A stretch of DNA of 64,000 bases from Kiloniella majae (GTDB lineage Bacteria > Pseudomonadota > Alphaproteobacteria > Kiloniellales > Kiloniellaceae): NCBI RefSeq assembly GCF_002118315.1, contig NZ_MTSZ01000001.1:1116001-1180000 (forward strand), in the 5' to 3' direction. This document shows, piece after piece, positions 1,134 to 53,164 of the stretch. The notes below the pieces were generated by a model that searched no databases, was not told the DNA's origin, and worked only from the letters and a program-made list of their open reading frames with translations. A program made the translations under genes and the position numbers. How positions within the stretch are numbered: position 1 is the stretch's first letter; every line of letters begins with the position of its first letter.

Positions 1134-2648
1134 TTAATTTCCAATTAAAACACTATCTGGATGCGCAAAATCAACGCCATCGGCATAAACCACATGTCTA
1201 GCAAACGATGCCTCACACCCTAAGCTCACCGCAAAGGTATTCCCCGCCTGTCCCACCATCACACCAGGTTTGGTTACAGTCTTTGATATCGAAAAATAAA
1301 CACTTTGATCCTCTGCACGGAGAGAATGAAGGTTAATACGCCCAGGCTTTAAAAACGCATCCTGTACACCCCAATCGGGCGAGAGAACGCCATATCTTGG
1401 TATTCGTAAACCAGATGCACTGAAACGCTTCGAGATCTGTCCTGCGAGATCAACTCGGATAAAATGGAACGGCACCCCTTCTTCCTCGGGCTTTTGCAAG
1501 GTTGTCAATCGATGGCACACCTGTTCAAAACCAGCCCGAAAACGTCGACGTAACAGATCAATGTCGTGCCGTAACTCAAAAGCCGCACTCCGAAACGCAC
1601 TGTAGGGCATCATAACCGCACCGGCGAAATAACTTCCCAATGCCTTCAAACACAGATTTTTCGCTTCTTTACTACTCAAAGGAACATTAGAAAGAACATT
1701 TTCCAGTACATCAGCATAGGCAACTTCTGCGATAATTCTGGCCATTCTAAAATTTAAAGAACTTGTCGCCAAAGTTTCCATCAACCTCAATGTGCCACCG
1801 TCCTCTCCCTTTAACTCCCACATCCCTCGCAGGAGCGTTCCTTGCGACGATACAGGAACAATCTCAACCTCAATACCCAACTGTTCATCCAAGTAATTCG
1901 CCAAAGCATCAAACAATCCGTAGGGCTTGGGCTCATTTAAGCGGCTTCGGAGTTCTTCGGCAGCTTGTTCCAAAACAGGAAAATAGTGATCGTTGGCCGA
2001 AAGCATATCAACCACTTCATCCGTTGGCGTTTCGCTCAGCAAAGCAGCCTGTTTTGATTCACCATTAATAAAATCAAACAGCTCTCCAACCATAGTGGTT
2101 AGCTTTTGGCTCTCATCGACAAGGACATTAGTAAATCTTTCCCGCTGATGCTCTGAAAGGTCATCATTGTCCTGTAAGATTTCGGCAAAAGACCTAATCG
2201 ATGTTAGCTGAGTCAAAAGCTGATGACTGGTTTCTGTAAAATAAGGATCAGCAGAAATAGATTCCCGCGCTTTAAGCGTATCTTCTCGTGCATTACGGAA
2301 AGCCCTGTACAGCTTCAACAAAGCACGACTGATCTCTGGATGCATGGCAACGAAATCACCAAGCACGGTGGTATCAGGCCTTGACTTTTCAAACAGGGGA
2401 TCAGAAAAAAGCTCATTCATAGCAGAAAGAAGCCGCGCTTCTTCTCCCCCCGTAAGCTCACCTTCTTTCACATTGAAAGCTTCTTCCAGCTTCTTTTGTA
2501 ACTTTCTTGATAAGGGCCGTTGATTATGCTCAACCAAGTTCAAATAGGCAGCAGAAATGTCAATTTTCTTTGCCATGGCAATTTGTGTAAGCCCTATCTG
2601 GCTTCTAAGATGGCGAATTTTTCGCCCCGCAAATATTTGTCGCGCCAT
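1134..2648 (-). CDS. ScfR-like short-chain fatty acyl transcriptional regulator (XRE HTH + DUF2083)
   Basis: About 504 residues. An XRE helix-turn-helix occupies roughly residues 5-60 (IRHLRSQIGLTQIAMAKK, AYLNLVEHNQRPLSRK). The C-terminal half resembles the DUF2083/ScfR acyl-CoA sensing domain of regulators that control propionate and acetate metabolism. In between, about residues 137-196 contain SHQLLTQLTSIRSFAEIL followed by a second helix, very like the H-box of a histidine kinase dimerisation domain with its His retained (about residue 142). There is no ATPase domain. From memory the family normally ends in a cysteine-rich CRxC-type tail; here the protein stops at VLIGN and that tail is absent. 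I chose the ATG at 2648 because the family starts MARxIFAG; a GTG at 2666 is possible. The nearby symporter-type sensor kinase fits a short-chain carbon sensing locus. Confidence 0.8.
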   Translation of the reverse strand: MARQIFAGRKIRHLRSQIGLTQIAMAKKIDISAAYLNLVEHNQRPLSRKLQKKLEEAFNVKEGELTGGEEARLLSAMNELFSDPLFEKSRPDTTVLGDFVAMHPEISRALLKLYRAFRNAREDTLKARESISADPYFTETSHQLLTQLTSIRSFAEILQDNDDLSEHQRERFTNVLVDESQKLTTMVGELFDFINGESKQAALLSETPTDEVVDMLSANDHYFPVLEQAAEELRSRLNEPKPYGLFDALANYLDEQLGIEVEIVPVSSQGTLLRGMWELKGEDGGTLRLMETLATSSLNFRMARIIAEVAYADVLENVLSNVPLSSKEAKNLCLKALGSYFAGAVMMPYSAFRSAAFELRHDIDLLRRRFRAGFEQVCHRLTTLQKPEEEGVPFHFIRVDLAGQISKRFSASGLRIPRYGVLSPDWGVQDAFLKPGRINLHSLRAEDQSVYFSISKTVTKPGVMVGQAGNTFAVSLGCEASFARHVVYADGVDFAHPDSVLIGN

Positions 2649-2794
2649 GACATTTACAGCTTTCACAAAATTCAGAGAAATACCCTAAATAATTTTACAA
2701 AATTTGCAAAATTACACAACGCTTTATTGTCATCACACTCTATGAATTCTATTTTTGAGTCATACGAACAAGTCAGTCCCTGTGCTTGATATTG

Positions 2795-3044
2795 TTAGTT
2801 GTGGCTTTTGTGCATGAGCCATCGTACACCTGTCCTGCGGCACTCTTATTTTCTTACCGGAAGAAGAGCGCATTCAGATTAAGACAGGAAATTGATCTCT
2901 AAAGTAAGTTCTGGCGTTTTGTGTTTTCGCATAGAACAGCAAATGCTTTAGGGATATAGGCAAGCTGGTTATCGCCAACTTTATAATCAGCGAAGCTCTA
3001 TCGACCTTACTGAGCGAGAGAGGCAACGCCCCTCTCGTTTTTTT
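2795..3044 (+). ncRNA. Candidate structured small RNA ending in an intrinsic terminator
   Basis: No convincing ORF lies in 2667-3069, yet the plus strand carries a row of hairpins and then a terminator. The pairings are: 2801-2806 with 2817-2822; 2829-2834 with 2883-2888, enclosing TTCTT/AAGAA; ATCTCTAAAG at 2895-2904 with CTTTAGGGAT at 2946-2955, enclosing GTTCT/AGAAC; and GCTGGTTAT at 2964-2972 with ATAATCAGC at 2983-2991. Several pairings need a G-U wobble. The terminator has no plus-strand gene upstream to serve. The 5' end is a guess, since no clear promoter is visible. The fold is a chain of separate hairpins, not the single long rod of 6S RNA, and I do not recognise the family. Confidence 0.4.
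3015..3044 (+). terminator. Intrinsic terminator, plus strand
   Basis: CGAGAGAGGC / GCCCCTCTCG stem with one mismatch, followed by seven T. There is no plus-strand protein gene upstream, which supports a non-coding transcript at about 2.8-3.0 kb. Confidence 0.75.
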
Positions 3045-3069
3045 CAAAACCCGATATTAAATCCCGATA

Positions 3070-3684
3070 TTAAATAAAGATTTGTCCCGCAGCCATATAG
3101 GCCACAATCGCAACCGTCGACACAGCCAAGACACTATTTACAATCAACCTTTTTTGCGGACTCTGAATTGCCGATATTATTCTTGCACCTCCCCATGACC
3201 ACATACAATTCGTAGGGAAACCACCAATAATAAACACCCCACACATTACTACCCATTGTTCAAGCACTGGGCTCTCCGGATTAGTAAATTGCGCAAATAC
3301 CGTCGTTGCCATCAACCATGCTTTCGGGTTCATCGGATGCACAATTAACCCGTTTAAATACCCCACAGTATCAGCACTTTGATCCCCAGATAATTTACCG
3401 AGGTCTGATCTGGCGATTTTCCATGCGAGATACAAAAGATAACAACTACTAATCACGGTTATTACCGGCGCGAGTGCTGGTATACCTTTTAAAAGGCTTG
3501 TAATACCAAAGGCCGCAACAGCCAAGACAAGAAAGAAACCGCTTTGGACACCGAAGGTAAAAGGCAAAGCACCACGAAAGCCCAACTTTGCCCCTGTCGC
3601 CATCAAAATCATATTTGCAGGCCCCGGCGTTCCGGACATAACCGCAGCAAAAATTAACGCAGGAATAATATTCTCTATCGGCAT
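3070..3684 (-). CDS. LysE/RhtB-family amino-acid exporter
   Basis: About 204 residues, the usual size for the family. The N-terminus carries the signature MSGTPGPANMILMATG with the GxxxGxxxG-like run after it. Six hydrophobic segments are visible, and HPMNPKAWLM is the typical mid-protein motif. Family members export amino acids or related metabolites across the inner membrane. I prefer the ATG at 3684 because GAGGAAAGGG lies just upstream of it; the frame stays open to 3717. The gene is divergent from a MocR-type regulator, a common arrangement in which the regulator controls the exporter. The substrate cannot be told. Confidence 0.85.
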   Translation of the reverse strand: MPIENIIPALIFAAVMSGTPGPANMILMATGAKLGFRGALPFTFGVQSGFFLVLAVAAFGITSLLKGIPALAPVITVISSCYLLYLAWKIARSDLGKLSGDQSADTVGYLNGLIVHPMNPKAWLMATTVFAQFTNPESPVLEQWVVMCGVFIIGGFPTNCMWSWGGARIISAIQSPQKRLIVNSVLAVSTVAIVAYMAAGQIFI

Positions 3685-3759
3685 GGCATCGTGCCCTTTC
3701 CTCTCATTATCAGACAAAACATCTGATCACCTGTCACGCCTTGCATATTCATATTGAAA

Positions 3760-3772
3760 TGTTCATTGAACA
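3760..3772. promoter_or_regulatory. Palindrome in LysE/MocR divergent promoter region
   Basis: Perfect inverted repeat TGTTCATTGAACA (6+1+6) between the divergent exporter and MocR genes, followed by two ATTGTTA direct repeats. It is a probable operator for the MocR protein (inference). The same TGTTCA/TGAACA arms occur at the second MocR locus (54417-54435). Confidence 0.5.
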
Positions 3773-3789
3773 ATTGTTATATTGTTACT

Positions 3790-5214
3790 ATGACAATTTT
3801 ATCCCTCATCTCAAAAAACCAAACGGACGACGGTCAGAAATACGCCCATCTGGAACAGCTGTTTAAAACGGCTATCCGCGATGGTATTTTGAAACCGGGA
3901 GAGAAATTACCGCCTTTGCGAACAGCCGCGTGGGAAGCCAAGTGCAGTCTCGGTACAATGTCACGTGTTTACAGTTCGTTAGAACGTAAAGGTTTGGTTA
4001 GTGCCAAAGTAGGTCGTGGCACCTTCGTTGAAGAAGCTGCAAACATTGGCGCCGATGTCATTCTGCCCAATCCACAGCATTCCCGAAGAGAACACCCTCT
4101 AAAAAACGACTACACTGTTGATTTGGGAATGAACGCCATAGCCAATGATTGGGGAGAAGAAATAATTCGCTGGGCGCTGCAACGTACTTCAACCAAAGCA
4201 TCCAGCTTCAATCTGATGACTTATCGTGATGGTTTTGGCGACGCGCAACAGAAGCTTGCATTACGCGCTTTTTTACCCGAACCATTACGTGGAATAAGTG
4301 ATGACAGAATACTCATCAACCATGGTGCTCAGAATGGTGTTTACACGGCGCTTGGACGATTATCTTCACCAGGCGACACAATATGTCAGGAACCCCTAAG
4401 CTACCCCGGTGTCTCAGCGGCTATATCTCAACTGGGATTATCCAGTTTAACAGTGGAGACCGATGATCAAGGCATTTGTCCAATCTCATTTGAGCAACAC
4501 TGTAAAAAAGGCCGTGTTCGTATTCTTGTAACAACAGCCACAGGTCACAATCCCACCTGCATCACAACACCACTCTCCCGCAGGAAAGAAATTGGGGCAA
4601 TAGCCCGAAAATATGATGTTCTTATTATTGAGGATGATATCTATGGCTTCCTCTATCCGGACGCCCCACCTCCCTATGCTGAACTTTTCCCAGAACAGGC
4701 AATCTATCTCAGCGGTCTGGCCAAAAGAATCACTCCATCTCTGCGCATAGGTTTTGCTGTTGCACCGCCCCATCTCACGATGCTGATGGCCCAAGGAATC
4801 ACCGCCCAAACCTGGATGGTTTCACCAATACTCATCAACGCAGCCATAGAAATTGCCAGTCGCACAGATGATCTTACCGACTTCACCCGCCAGACGACTG
4901 CCACGGCGAAAGAACGCCATAACCTGACAAGCCGCATTCTCTCACCTTACATCGACAGTTACGCATCCTGCCAATCCCACGCATGGGTCCGACTACCAGA
5001 AACAATCTCAATATCACAACTTGTCCGCCGGGCCTCCAAAGTCGGAGTCCATATTCTAGACGGTAGTCGTTTCGCCAACAATACAACTTCGGGCAGACAC
5101 AACGTCAGGCTCTCAATCATGGCCCCAGAAACAATACAAGAACTGGAAATAGGCTTAATAAAGCTGAGTACCGCTCTCTCTAACCCAAATGAAAGATCTT
5201 GCGACTTCTTTTAA
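3790..5214 (+). CDS. MocR/PdxR-type GntR regulator with aminotransferase domain
   Basis: About 474 residues. A GntR winged helix-turn-helix spans roughly residues 12-85 (GILKPGEKLPPLR, TMSRVYSSLERKGLVSAKVG). The rest is a fold-type I aminotransferase-like domain with the PLP-lysine motif LSGLAKRITPSLRIGF and the aspartate region IIEDDIYG. Such proteins use PLP or an amino compound as effector and usually control an adjacent transport or metabolic gene, here the divergent LysE exporter. I chose the ATG at 3790; the upstream TTG at 3754 would put the operator-like palindrome inside the coding region. Confidence 0.88.
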   Translation: MTILSLISKNQTDDGQKYAHLEQLFKTAIRDGILKPGEKLPPLRTAAWEAKCSLGTMSRVYSSLERKGLVSAKVGRGTFVEEAANIGADVILPNPQHSRREHPLKNDYTVDLGMNAIANDWGEEIIRWALQRTSTKASSFNLMTYRDGFGDAQQKLALRAFLPEPLRGISDDRILINHGAQNGVYTALGRLSSPGDTICQEPLSYPGVSAAISQLGLSSLTVETDDQGICPISFEQHCKKGRVRILVTTATGHNPTCITTPLSRRKEIGAIARKYDVLIIEDDIYGFLYPDAPPPYAELFPEQAIYLSGLAKRITPSLRIGFAVAPPHLTMLMAQGITAQTWMVSPILINAAIEIASRTDDLTDFTRQTTATAKERHNLTSRILSPYIDSYASCQSHAWVRLPETISISQLVRRASKVGVHILDGSRFANNTTSGRHNVRLSIMAPETIQELEIGLIKLSTALSNPNERSCDFF

Positions 5215-25437: not shown

Positions 25438-25514
25438 TGGTGGGCCCGGCAGGACTTGAACCTGCGACATCTCCGTTATGAGCGGAGGGTTCTAACCAAC
25501 TGAACTACAGGCCC
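25438..25514 (-). tRNA. tRNA with CAU anticodon, probably tRNA-Ile2 (lysidine type)
   Basis: A 77-base cloverleaf with the 3' CCA encoded. The acceptor stem is GGGCCTG / CGGGCCC, the D arm TTCAGTTGGTTAGAA, the anticodon arm CTCCG-CTCATAA-CGGAG and the T arm CAGG-TTCAAGT-CCTG. The anticodon is CAU. The GGGCCTGTAG acceptor resembles alphaproteobacterial isoleucine-2 tRNAs rather than initiator Met (the acceptor lacks a 1-72 mismatch), but elongator Met cannot be excluded by eye. Confidence 0.92.
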
Positions 25515-50981: not shown

Positions 50982-51881
50982 TTATTTCACAGTATCAGCA
51001 AGTGTCTGGCGACTTAATTTCAAGCCGACAAAAACAATCGCAGATGAAAGGAATAAAAGAAGGAAGCCAAAGGCAGAACCAGATTCCCAGTTAAAGCGTG
51101 TGATAAACTGGTTATAGATTTGCTCGGTAAACCACAGGCTATCTTTCCCACCAAGAAGCGTCGGCGTCAGATAATTCCCCAGCGTCAGCATAAAGACAAC
51201 AATACAGCCCGATGCGATCCCCGGCATTGCATGTGGAATAACGATCTCGCGCAGAATAGAGTACGTGCTGCCACCAAGATCATACCCGGCTTCGATAAGA
51301 CTATCATCCAGTGTATCCAGCACAGAAACCAGCGGAACGACCATAAAGAGCATGGATGTATAAACCAAACCAACCATCAACGTCGCATCGCTATAGAGCA
51401 ACTCAACAGGACCATCAACCAAGCCAGCCCATTGCAGAAAACTACTGATTACACCGGATTCACGTAACAAGATCATCCACCCGAAAGTTCTGACAAGCTC
51501 CGAAACCCAAAAGGGGATCAAGCACATCATAAATAGCAGGTTACGCTTTTTGCCTTTAAGAACTTTGGCAATGTAATAAGACACTGGGAAACCGACAACC
51601 AATGTGATCGCTGTTGCGACAATTGACATAACAGCTGTACGAACAAAGGTGTTCCAATAAAGCGGTTCGGTAAAGAACTCGATATAGTTCTGAAAACTGA
51701 AAGCATATTCCCGATACCCCAACTTTTCGCGTAGGGAAACAGTCAAAAGATCGAGATGCGGTAAAATAATAAGCAGGAACAGCCAGAGTAAAAGCGGTAG
51801 CATCAACAGGAAAGTCCCAAGCTTAATCATCGGGATTGTTGTGCTCTTTTCTGTTCCAGAAACCATCTGGAGTGTACTCAT
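50982..51881 (-). CDS. ABC transporter permease, PotB-like
   Basis: 299 residues with six transmembrane helices. The EAA loop is in LDDSLIEAGYDLGGSTYSILREIVIPHAMPGI near residue 200. Start overlaps the ATPase stop by 4 bases (ATGA), so translation is coupled. Confidence 0.93.
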   Translation of the reverse strand: MSTLQMVSGTEKSTTIPMIKLGTFLLMLPLLLWLFLLIILPHLDLLTVSLREKLGYREYAFSFQNYIEFFTEPLYWNTFVRTAVMSIVATAITLVVGFPVSYYIAKVLKGKKRNLLFMMCLIPFWVSELVRTFGWMILLRESGVISSFLQWAGLVDGPVELLYSDATLMVGLVYTSMLFMVVPLVSVLDTLDDSLIEAGYDLGGSTYSILREIVIPHAMPGIASGCIVVFMLTLGNYLTPTLLGGKDSLWFTEQIYNQFITRFNWESGSAFGFLLLFLSSAIVFVGLKLSRQTLADTVK

Positions 51882-53038
51882 GCTGCTTGCTCCTCACCAA
51901 GACCAGCCTGAGGCGTACCCGTCTGGGATACGTAGGCGCGCGCTTTATCAATACCCCACGACAGACGAAGCTGTTCGCCAGATTTGAGATCACTGAAAGC
52001 ACCTGTTTGCGGTAATGATACAGTTACTTGATGGCCTGTTTGCTGATCGCGCACCTGCGCGCGACTGTTCGCGCCGTCAAAGAGAAGGTTTTCGACGATC
52101 CCGGACAGCGTATTCTGACCATCTTCAATATGAGCACCTGTCTGCGCAGAGCTGTCTCGCTCAATGGTAATCGCTTCAGGACGTACAAAGAGCTCTACTC
52201 TGTCACCAGCATTAAGCACCCTCTCATTTCCTGTTATTCCGGCAATTACACCACCATCGTCAAGCGATACCAAGGCTTGTCCATTATCAAGGGAATCAAC
52301 CCGCCCACTCCAGCGATTTGAATCACCAACAAACCCGGCGACGAAAGCCGTTTTGGGATTATAATAAAGGTCCTGCGGGGATCCGACTTGCTCAAACCGT
52401 CCTTCATTCATGACCGCAACATTATCGGACATCACCAAGGCTTCAGACTGGTCATGGGTAATATAGACAAAGGTTGTTCCAACTTCATGCTGAAGCTGTT
52501 TCAGCTCAACTTTCATGTGTTCGCGCAGTTTCAAATCGAGAGCACCTAATGGCTCATCAAGAAGCAAAACAGCTGGCTCAAGAACAAGGGAACGTGCAAT
52601 TGCGATGCGCTGACGTTGCCCGCCAGAGAGCTGTGTGACATCCTTTGGTCCCGCATCTGGCAGGCTTACCCGTTCCAGCACATCAGCAACTTTTTTATCT
52701 ATTTCAGCCTGCGGCAGTTTTCTACGCTTCAAGCCGTAGGCGATATTCTCAGCCACGTTCATCATGGGAAATAGTGCGAGGTGTTGGAAAACCATATTCA
52801 CAGGACGCTTGTTCGGGGGAACCCCCAACATTGATTGTTCTTTGATGACAATGTCACCGGCTGTCGGTTCAATAAAACCGGCAAGCATACGTAAAAGAGT
52901 GGTTTTACCACAGCCACTTGGACCGAGTATTGAGAAAAAAGATCCCTTTGGAATTTCCAAAGACACATTATCAACCGCTGTAAACTTCCCAAAAGATTTC
53001 ACCAGCTGGCGACACTCAAGATCCAATTGATTGCTCAT
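51878..53038 (-). CDS. ABC transporter ATP-binding protein, PotA-like
   Basis: 386 residues. Walker A LGPSGCGKTTLLRML (about 38-52), Q-loop, signature LSGGQRQRIAIARSL, Walker B AVLLLDEPLGALD and H-loop YITHDQSEAL. The C-terminal TOBE domain (about 280-375) fits polyamine/iron/phosphonate-type importers. It follows the binding protein after a gap containing a strong stem-loop. Confidence 0.95.
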   Translation of the reverse strand: MSNQLDLECRQLVKSFGKFTAVDNVSLEIPKGSFFSILGPSGCGKTTLLRMLAGFIEPTAGDIVIKEQSMLGVPPNKRPVNMVFQHLALFPMMNVAENIAYGLKRRKLPQAEIDKKVADVLERVSLPDAGPKDVTQLSGGQRQRIAIARSLVLEPAVLLLDEPLGALDLKLREHMKVELKQLQHEVGTTFVYITHDQSEALVMSDNVAVMNEGRFEQVGSPQDLYYNPKTAFVAGFVGDSNRWSGRVDSLDNGQALVSLDDGGVIAGITGNERVLNAGDRVELFVRPEAITIERDSSAQTGAHIEDGQNTLSGIVENLLFDGANSRAQVRDQQTGHQVTVSLPQTGAFSDLKSGEQLRLSWGIDKARAYVSQTGTPQAGLGEEQAA

Positions 53039-53164
53039 ATTCTTTATTTACCTACGAAAGGACGTTGTGTTTTATCAGGTCTATCGACCTCTTATGCCGG
53101 GCTTTAGAGTCCCCCGAGATTAGGACTTTAGCGACGAAACATTTATCAAGCCGCTGATGGCAGG

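Follow-up and report, generated by a model that had tools for sequence, protein, structure and literature searches.

The intergenic region between the scfR gene and a LysE-type exporter gene of Kiloniella majae most likely gives rise, judging from its sequence and that of its relatives, to a structured small RNA of ~280 nt, which is kept in place in every Kiloniella species examined and probably regulates other genes. Coordinates refer to the window, that is, the whole stretch of 64,000 nucleotides analysed. What the comparison of nine Kiloniella genomes demonstrates is conservation of structure with compensatory base changes, invariant unpaired segments, synteny and the lack of a conserved open reading frame. 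Since the locus combines its own terminator, the lack of a downstream gene, and variable hairpins with an invariant, partly unpaired module, a trans-acting small RNA fits best, and we moderately favour an intergenic RNA of the genus Kiloniella that is independently terminated, divergent from scfR and active in trans by base pairing. The points against are a promoter-like site at chance level, modest folding scores once the terminator is removed, an antisense strand that also folds, target searches that failed, and a 5′ part that is wholly different in K. laminariae. The features of the locus are as follows.

1134-2666, minus strand: gene for an ScfR-type regulator, divergent neighbour of the RNA (Pfam PF09856, E = 4e-34, and others)
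2694-2710, no strand assigned: possible ScfR operator, a pair of boxes (TTTACAAA and TTTGCAAA, 9 nt apart) upstream of scfR, between that gene and the RNA promoter
2727-2755, plus strand: predicted sigma-70-type promoter, TTGTCA-17-TATTTT (9 of 12 matches, from a scan)
2762-3044, plus strand: predicted small RNA of about 283 nt, delimited by the promoter-like site and the terminator
2769-2788, plus strand: predicted 5′ hairpin P0 (CAAGUCAG-UCC-CUGUGCUUG), its sequence recognisable in seven of the nine species
2802-2821, plus strand: hairpin P0b (UGGCU...AGCCA), predicted fold
2829-2888, plus strand: hairpin P1 (CCUGUC...GACAGG) with variable interior, predicted fold
2895-2955, plus strand: hairpin P2, with a 12-bp stem in the window and a variable interior (fold and covariation)
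2964-2991, plus strand: hairpin P3, with a 9-bp stem and a 10-nt loop at 2973-2982 (fold and covariation)
2992-3006, plus strand: invariant linker GAAGCUCUAUCGACC, 15 nt, mostly single-stranded, a candidate contact site (15 of 15 columns identical in 9/9)
3015-3044, plus strand: intrinsic terminator, hairpin 3015-3037 and U tract 3038-3044 (seven U)
3070-3717, minus strand: LysE-type exporter gene, convergent neighbour of the RNA (PF01810, E = 4e-19)

The region at 2795-3044, which a preliminary description of this DNA had singled out as a candidate structured RNA, sits between two minus-strand genes, as stated there: scfR, for a short-chain fatty acyl-CoA regulator, at 1134-2666 and the lysE-like gene at 3070-3717. 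Both flank the RNA locus in all nine Kiloniella genomes, with protein identities to the window's copies of 80-97% for ScfR and 71-92% for LysE across the genus; the linker is invariant and the terminator kept in 9/9 while the two proteins fall to 80% and 71% identity, respectively.

The terminator had been described as having no plus-strand gene to serve. Its position proved exact, and no plus-strand open reading frame of at least 40 amino acids lies within 2795-3044; the nearest one, at 2520-2789, stops upstream of 2795. The locus thus has an intrinsic terminator on the RNA's own strand with no protein gene before it, the arrangement of a small RNA gene. A scan for terminator-like sites over 2000-4000 returned five, against 2.1 ± 1.5 in shuffled sequences, so that a single terminator is not significant by itself; the real evidence is not the scan score but the conservation of hairpin and U tract in 9/9 genus sequences of the 3′-domain alignment. 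The promoter is a matter of prediction. Four promoter-like sites were found where 3.6 are expected by chance, and the site at 2727-2755 is not above chance by score; TTATTG and the CTA at its -10 element are kept in 9/9 aligned sequences. Taken at face value, this site would place the start of the RNA near 2762, and hence the 5′ end is probably somewhat upstream of the start given in the preliminary description. In the two most distant species the predicted RNA is shorter, about 192 nt.

Folding of the plus strand at 2795-3047 gave a minimum free energy of -80.4 kcal/mol compared with -64.2 ± 4.6 for dinucleotide shuffles (z = -3.56; none of 200 as low). For the predicted 283-nt RNA, z was -3.22 with the terminator and -2.34 without it, so part of the low energy is due to the terminator. 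The z values of all nine predicted RNAs lie between -2.3 and -4.0, and are modest without the terminator (-0.46 to -3.43). The antisense strand, however, is also more stable than its shuffles (z = -2.49), folds nearly as well across the nine loci, and in three of them does better than the plus strand relative to its own shuffles. Folding energy alone therefore cannot fix the strand, whereas the U tract does. The hairpins reported to precede the terminator are real, with stems of 12 bp (P2) and 9 bp (P3); the "10-bp stem" mentioned among them is probably one or the other. Covariation was counted for P2, P3 and the terminator stem, and P0, P0b and P1 are fold predictions.

In P3, 98.8% of cells (positions of a pair in each of nine sequences) are paired, and four of the nine pairs changed on both sides. 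Taken together with the terminator, the structure has 95.7% of cells paired and nine double-change cells, either value being reached by none of 500 shuffles, while controls with the structure slid along the alignment gave 38-53% paired and zero double changes. All of these double changes are in P3; the terminator stem is nearly invariant, and six of nine sequences fail to form one of its pairs. Two further measures of this combined structure, the number of pairs and that of pair types, were weaker, being reached by 32 and 29 of 500 shuffles. P2 was misaligned by sequence in the two most distant species, and its arms were therefore paired by hand and checked in the DNA. Its outer eight pairs form in 9/9 sequences. 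Over 12 pairs in nine sequences, 88.9% of cells are paired compared with 77.3% when shuffled, a percentage that leans towards structure, since pairing guided the choice of arms. There are 16 double-change cells over the 12 pairs (reached by none of 2000 column shuffles). The pair types of P2 are stronger evidence than the percentage: there are 20 further pair types (reached by 10 of 2000), and the ninth pair alone occurs as A-U, G-U, G-C, C-G and U-A. The preliminary description had named, besides the lack of a transcript, the absence of compensatory changes in homologous regions as what would refute its proposal; such changes were found in P2 and P3, and the candidate structured RNA is thus supported by covariation in two helices. 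Beside these variable stems, the core of the P3 loop, GCCAAC, is invariant in 9/9 genus sequences.

The RNA appears to be confined to the genus. DNA homologs of 2670-3060 were found in all nine Kiloniella genomes and in 0/14 other genomes of the family (9/23 overall); in four of the nine only pieces align, chiefly the 3′ part. A covariance model was built on the 3′ domain (P3, linker and terminator), and the strict filters used in the large searches could let very diverged relatives escape. Across the order it matched 9 of 61 genomes, all Kiloniella, and none of the 52 genomes outside the genus; one copy per genus genome scores above 90 bits. In a sample of the class it matched 3 of 385, two Kiloniella and one weak match (28.7 bits) that keeps the terminator, lacks the linker and is not a convincing homolog. 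None of 21 loci with scfR relatives in other genera of the family matched the model, and of nine such loci with a scanned upstream region two had a plus-strand terminator-like site. The exact pattern CAGNGAAGCTCTATCGACC occurred in nine stretches over genome contigs (eight in Kiloniella or Rhodospirillales records, with K. laminariae, K. spongiae, K. litopenaei and K. sp. EL199 among the species named, and one in Variovorax) and in two over viral contigs; the Variovorax and viral sites fall inside open frames that encode the peptide AKLYRP, lack both P3 and the terminator, and are chance occurrences. In the two K. laminariae genomes the 3′ domain is kept, but the 5′ half of the RNA region is shorter and shows no sequence relationship to that of the others, which looks like a replacement of the 5′ domain.

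No known RNA family accounts for the locus. At gathering scores, Rfam found only a tRNA in the window (25441-25514) and nothing at the RNA locus, and a search of the eight homologous loci with Rfam 15 gave no match at E values up to 1. The likeness to FsrA (RF02273, 15.7 bits) and Termite-leu (RF01730, 13.5 bits) is sub-threshold (gathering scores 80 and 51) and concerns the terminator end, mainly the terminator hairpin; a mir-287 match is on the opposite strand at 2666-2738, far below its gathering score. A riboswitch or attenuator of a downstream gene was rejected, as lysE is on the opposite strand in 9/9 and no same-strand gene follows the terminator. The closest resemblance is to the trans-encoded small RNAs of Alphaproteobacteria, such as the alpha-r families, AbcR, MmgR and similar RNAs. 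With these the Kiloniella RNA shares an intergenic location, a Rho-independent terminator of its own, a division into hairpin domains with unpaired stretches that are conserved, and a restricted distribution, but it has no Rfam match at gathering scores and, at about 283 nt, is longer than most. The open-access literature yielded no description of this RNA, nor did we find a small RNA paper for Kiloniella. Genus-restricted small RNAs without assigned targets are common in bacteria, and one more would not surprise a specialist; we regard this RNA as an uncatalogued, well-supported gene candidate of an ordinary kind; a model of its conserved 3′ domain and a set of nine genomes are already at hand.

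By the mechanism we propose, plus-strand transcription would begin at the promoter facing away from scfR and end at the RNA's own intrinsic terminator. The product would be a chain of hairpins whose active part is most likely the 3′ domain (P3 with its GCCAAC loop, the linker and the terminator), and the P3 loop, the linker or both would pair in trans with mRNAs. Among the candidates examined, no conserved mRNA partner of linker or loop turned up. Matches to GTAAGGTCGATAGAGC, the complement of the linker, with three mismatches at most were not in excess over the reversed control in most genomes (among the matches listed), and the 12-nt matches found in genes of OmpR-type regulators fall within their coding sequences. 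For the loop complement AAAGTTGGCG there were 29 matches in the window's own genome, the RNA gene included, compared with 18 for the reversed control. One of these, directly ahead of a cyclase-like gene's ribosome-binding site and with 12 contiguous complementary bases, is altered or missing in all seven aligned relatives, and the remaining matches were sorted by position only. Duplex energies for eight neighbouring start regions and two query segments (16 tests) were best for the response regulator at 991 (fraction 0.01), a pairing that is not kept in four of nine species. Also rejected was the complement GGTCGATAGA at 53080-53089, 51 nt upstream of a PotA-like gene: it belongs to a small hairpin, and relatives do not keep the loop. 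That hairpin, AGGTC-GATA-GACCT, is at 53077-53090 on the minus strand, upstream of the PotA-like ABC gene (51878-53038). Four close relatives mostly keep its stem, and three of them have a different loop.

These outcomes bear on the main rival of base pairing, namely that the structured RNA acts by binding a protein, through sequestration or as a scaffold, and that the P3 loop and linker form a protein site and not seeds. 6S and CsrB RNAs act in this way. We consider this possible but clearly less probable than pairing in trans. The invariant bases lie side by side in a single module, a hairpin with a tail, whose geometry is fixed and which exceeds the usual length of a seed. This suits a protein site, as does the lack of a conserved mRNA partner in the searches; the latter says little, however, because the searches were limited to exact or near-exact complements of linker and loop. 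Against a protein site, we noticed neither a repeated binding motif nor a 6S-like open helix in the RNA. 6S RNA is, like the Kiloniella RNA, a structured single-copy RNA gene of the same genomes, but it forms one long rod with a central bulge where the Kiloniella RNA has several separate hairpins; its model (RF00013) gave no match here, and 6S itself is a separate gene at another locus in 9/9 genomes.

The constant position between scfR and lysE in 9/9 genomes, and the fact that a lysE transcript running on past its gene would be complementary to the RNA, could instead point to an element acting in cis, either as an antisense RNA against the 3′ end of such a read-through transcript or in the control of scfR from the divergent promoter region. 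We think this unlikely. The RNA overlaps neither coding sequence and has a U tract on the plus strand only, pairing of linker or loop to the start regions of scfR or lysE is no better than chance, and a purely antisense role would not need compensatory changes inside P2 and P3.

Far less probable still is that no RNA is made and the region holds chance inverted repeats and the remnant of a decayed gene with a leftover terminator. The scan scores of promoter and terminator, taken alone, are near chance, and transcription is deduced from the DNA, but chance repeats are at odds with compensatory changes in two helices and with 15 of 15 linker bases invariant in nine of nine species. A leader or small-protein mRNA hardly deserves consideration: the one frame that could speak for it, of 21-22 amino acids and starting MSHR, is found in the window and two close relatives (3/9) and is absent or broken in the other six, no frame of at least 15 amino acids is shared across the nine loci, the 3′ domain has single-base insertions between linker and terminator in two species, and its paired changes fit RNA and not codons. 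On the opposite strand, the frame at 2874-3047 has no Pfam match. Immediately past the terminator, at 3051-3076, there is a tandem 13-nt repeat, CCCGATATTAAAT, which is absent from the aligned relatives.

Returning to the favoured trans-acting RNA, control shared with scfR through the operator-like boxes at 2694-2710 is possible. Both boxes are exact in five of nine species and one is exact in the other four. According to a 2023 paper on RamB of Paracoccus (PMC10370305), a pair of near-identical boxes is common at sites of the ScfR family, separated in that case by an 18-bp spacer. By analogy, the Kiloniella boxes may be bound by this ScfR, or may bear on the promoter of the RNA. An extension of this idea, in which the RNA is an arm of the ScfR circuit, so that acyl-CoA sensing would set its level and thereby retune carbon metabolism or transport post-transcriptionally, is in our view doubtful, and the open-access literature on ScfR and small RNAs contained no description of such an arm that we could find. 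Were the RNA under the control of ScfR, it would connect the sensing of acyl-CoA with regulation by RNA. The scfR product itself has, by Pfam, HTH, IrrE/M78-like and ScfRs C-terminal domains plus a HisKA-like stretch, the last at residues 146-199 (E = 2e-7), between the HTH and M78-like domains. A lone response-regulator gene (608-991) comes after scfR, making this locus an unusual pairing of a fatty-acyl-CoA regulator with two-component parts.
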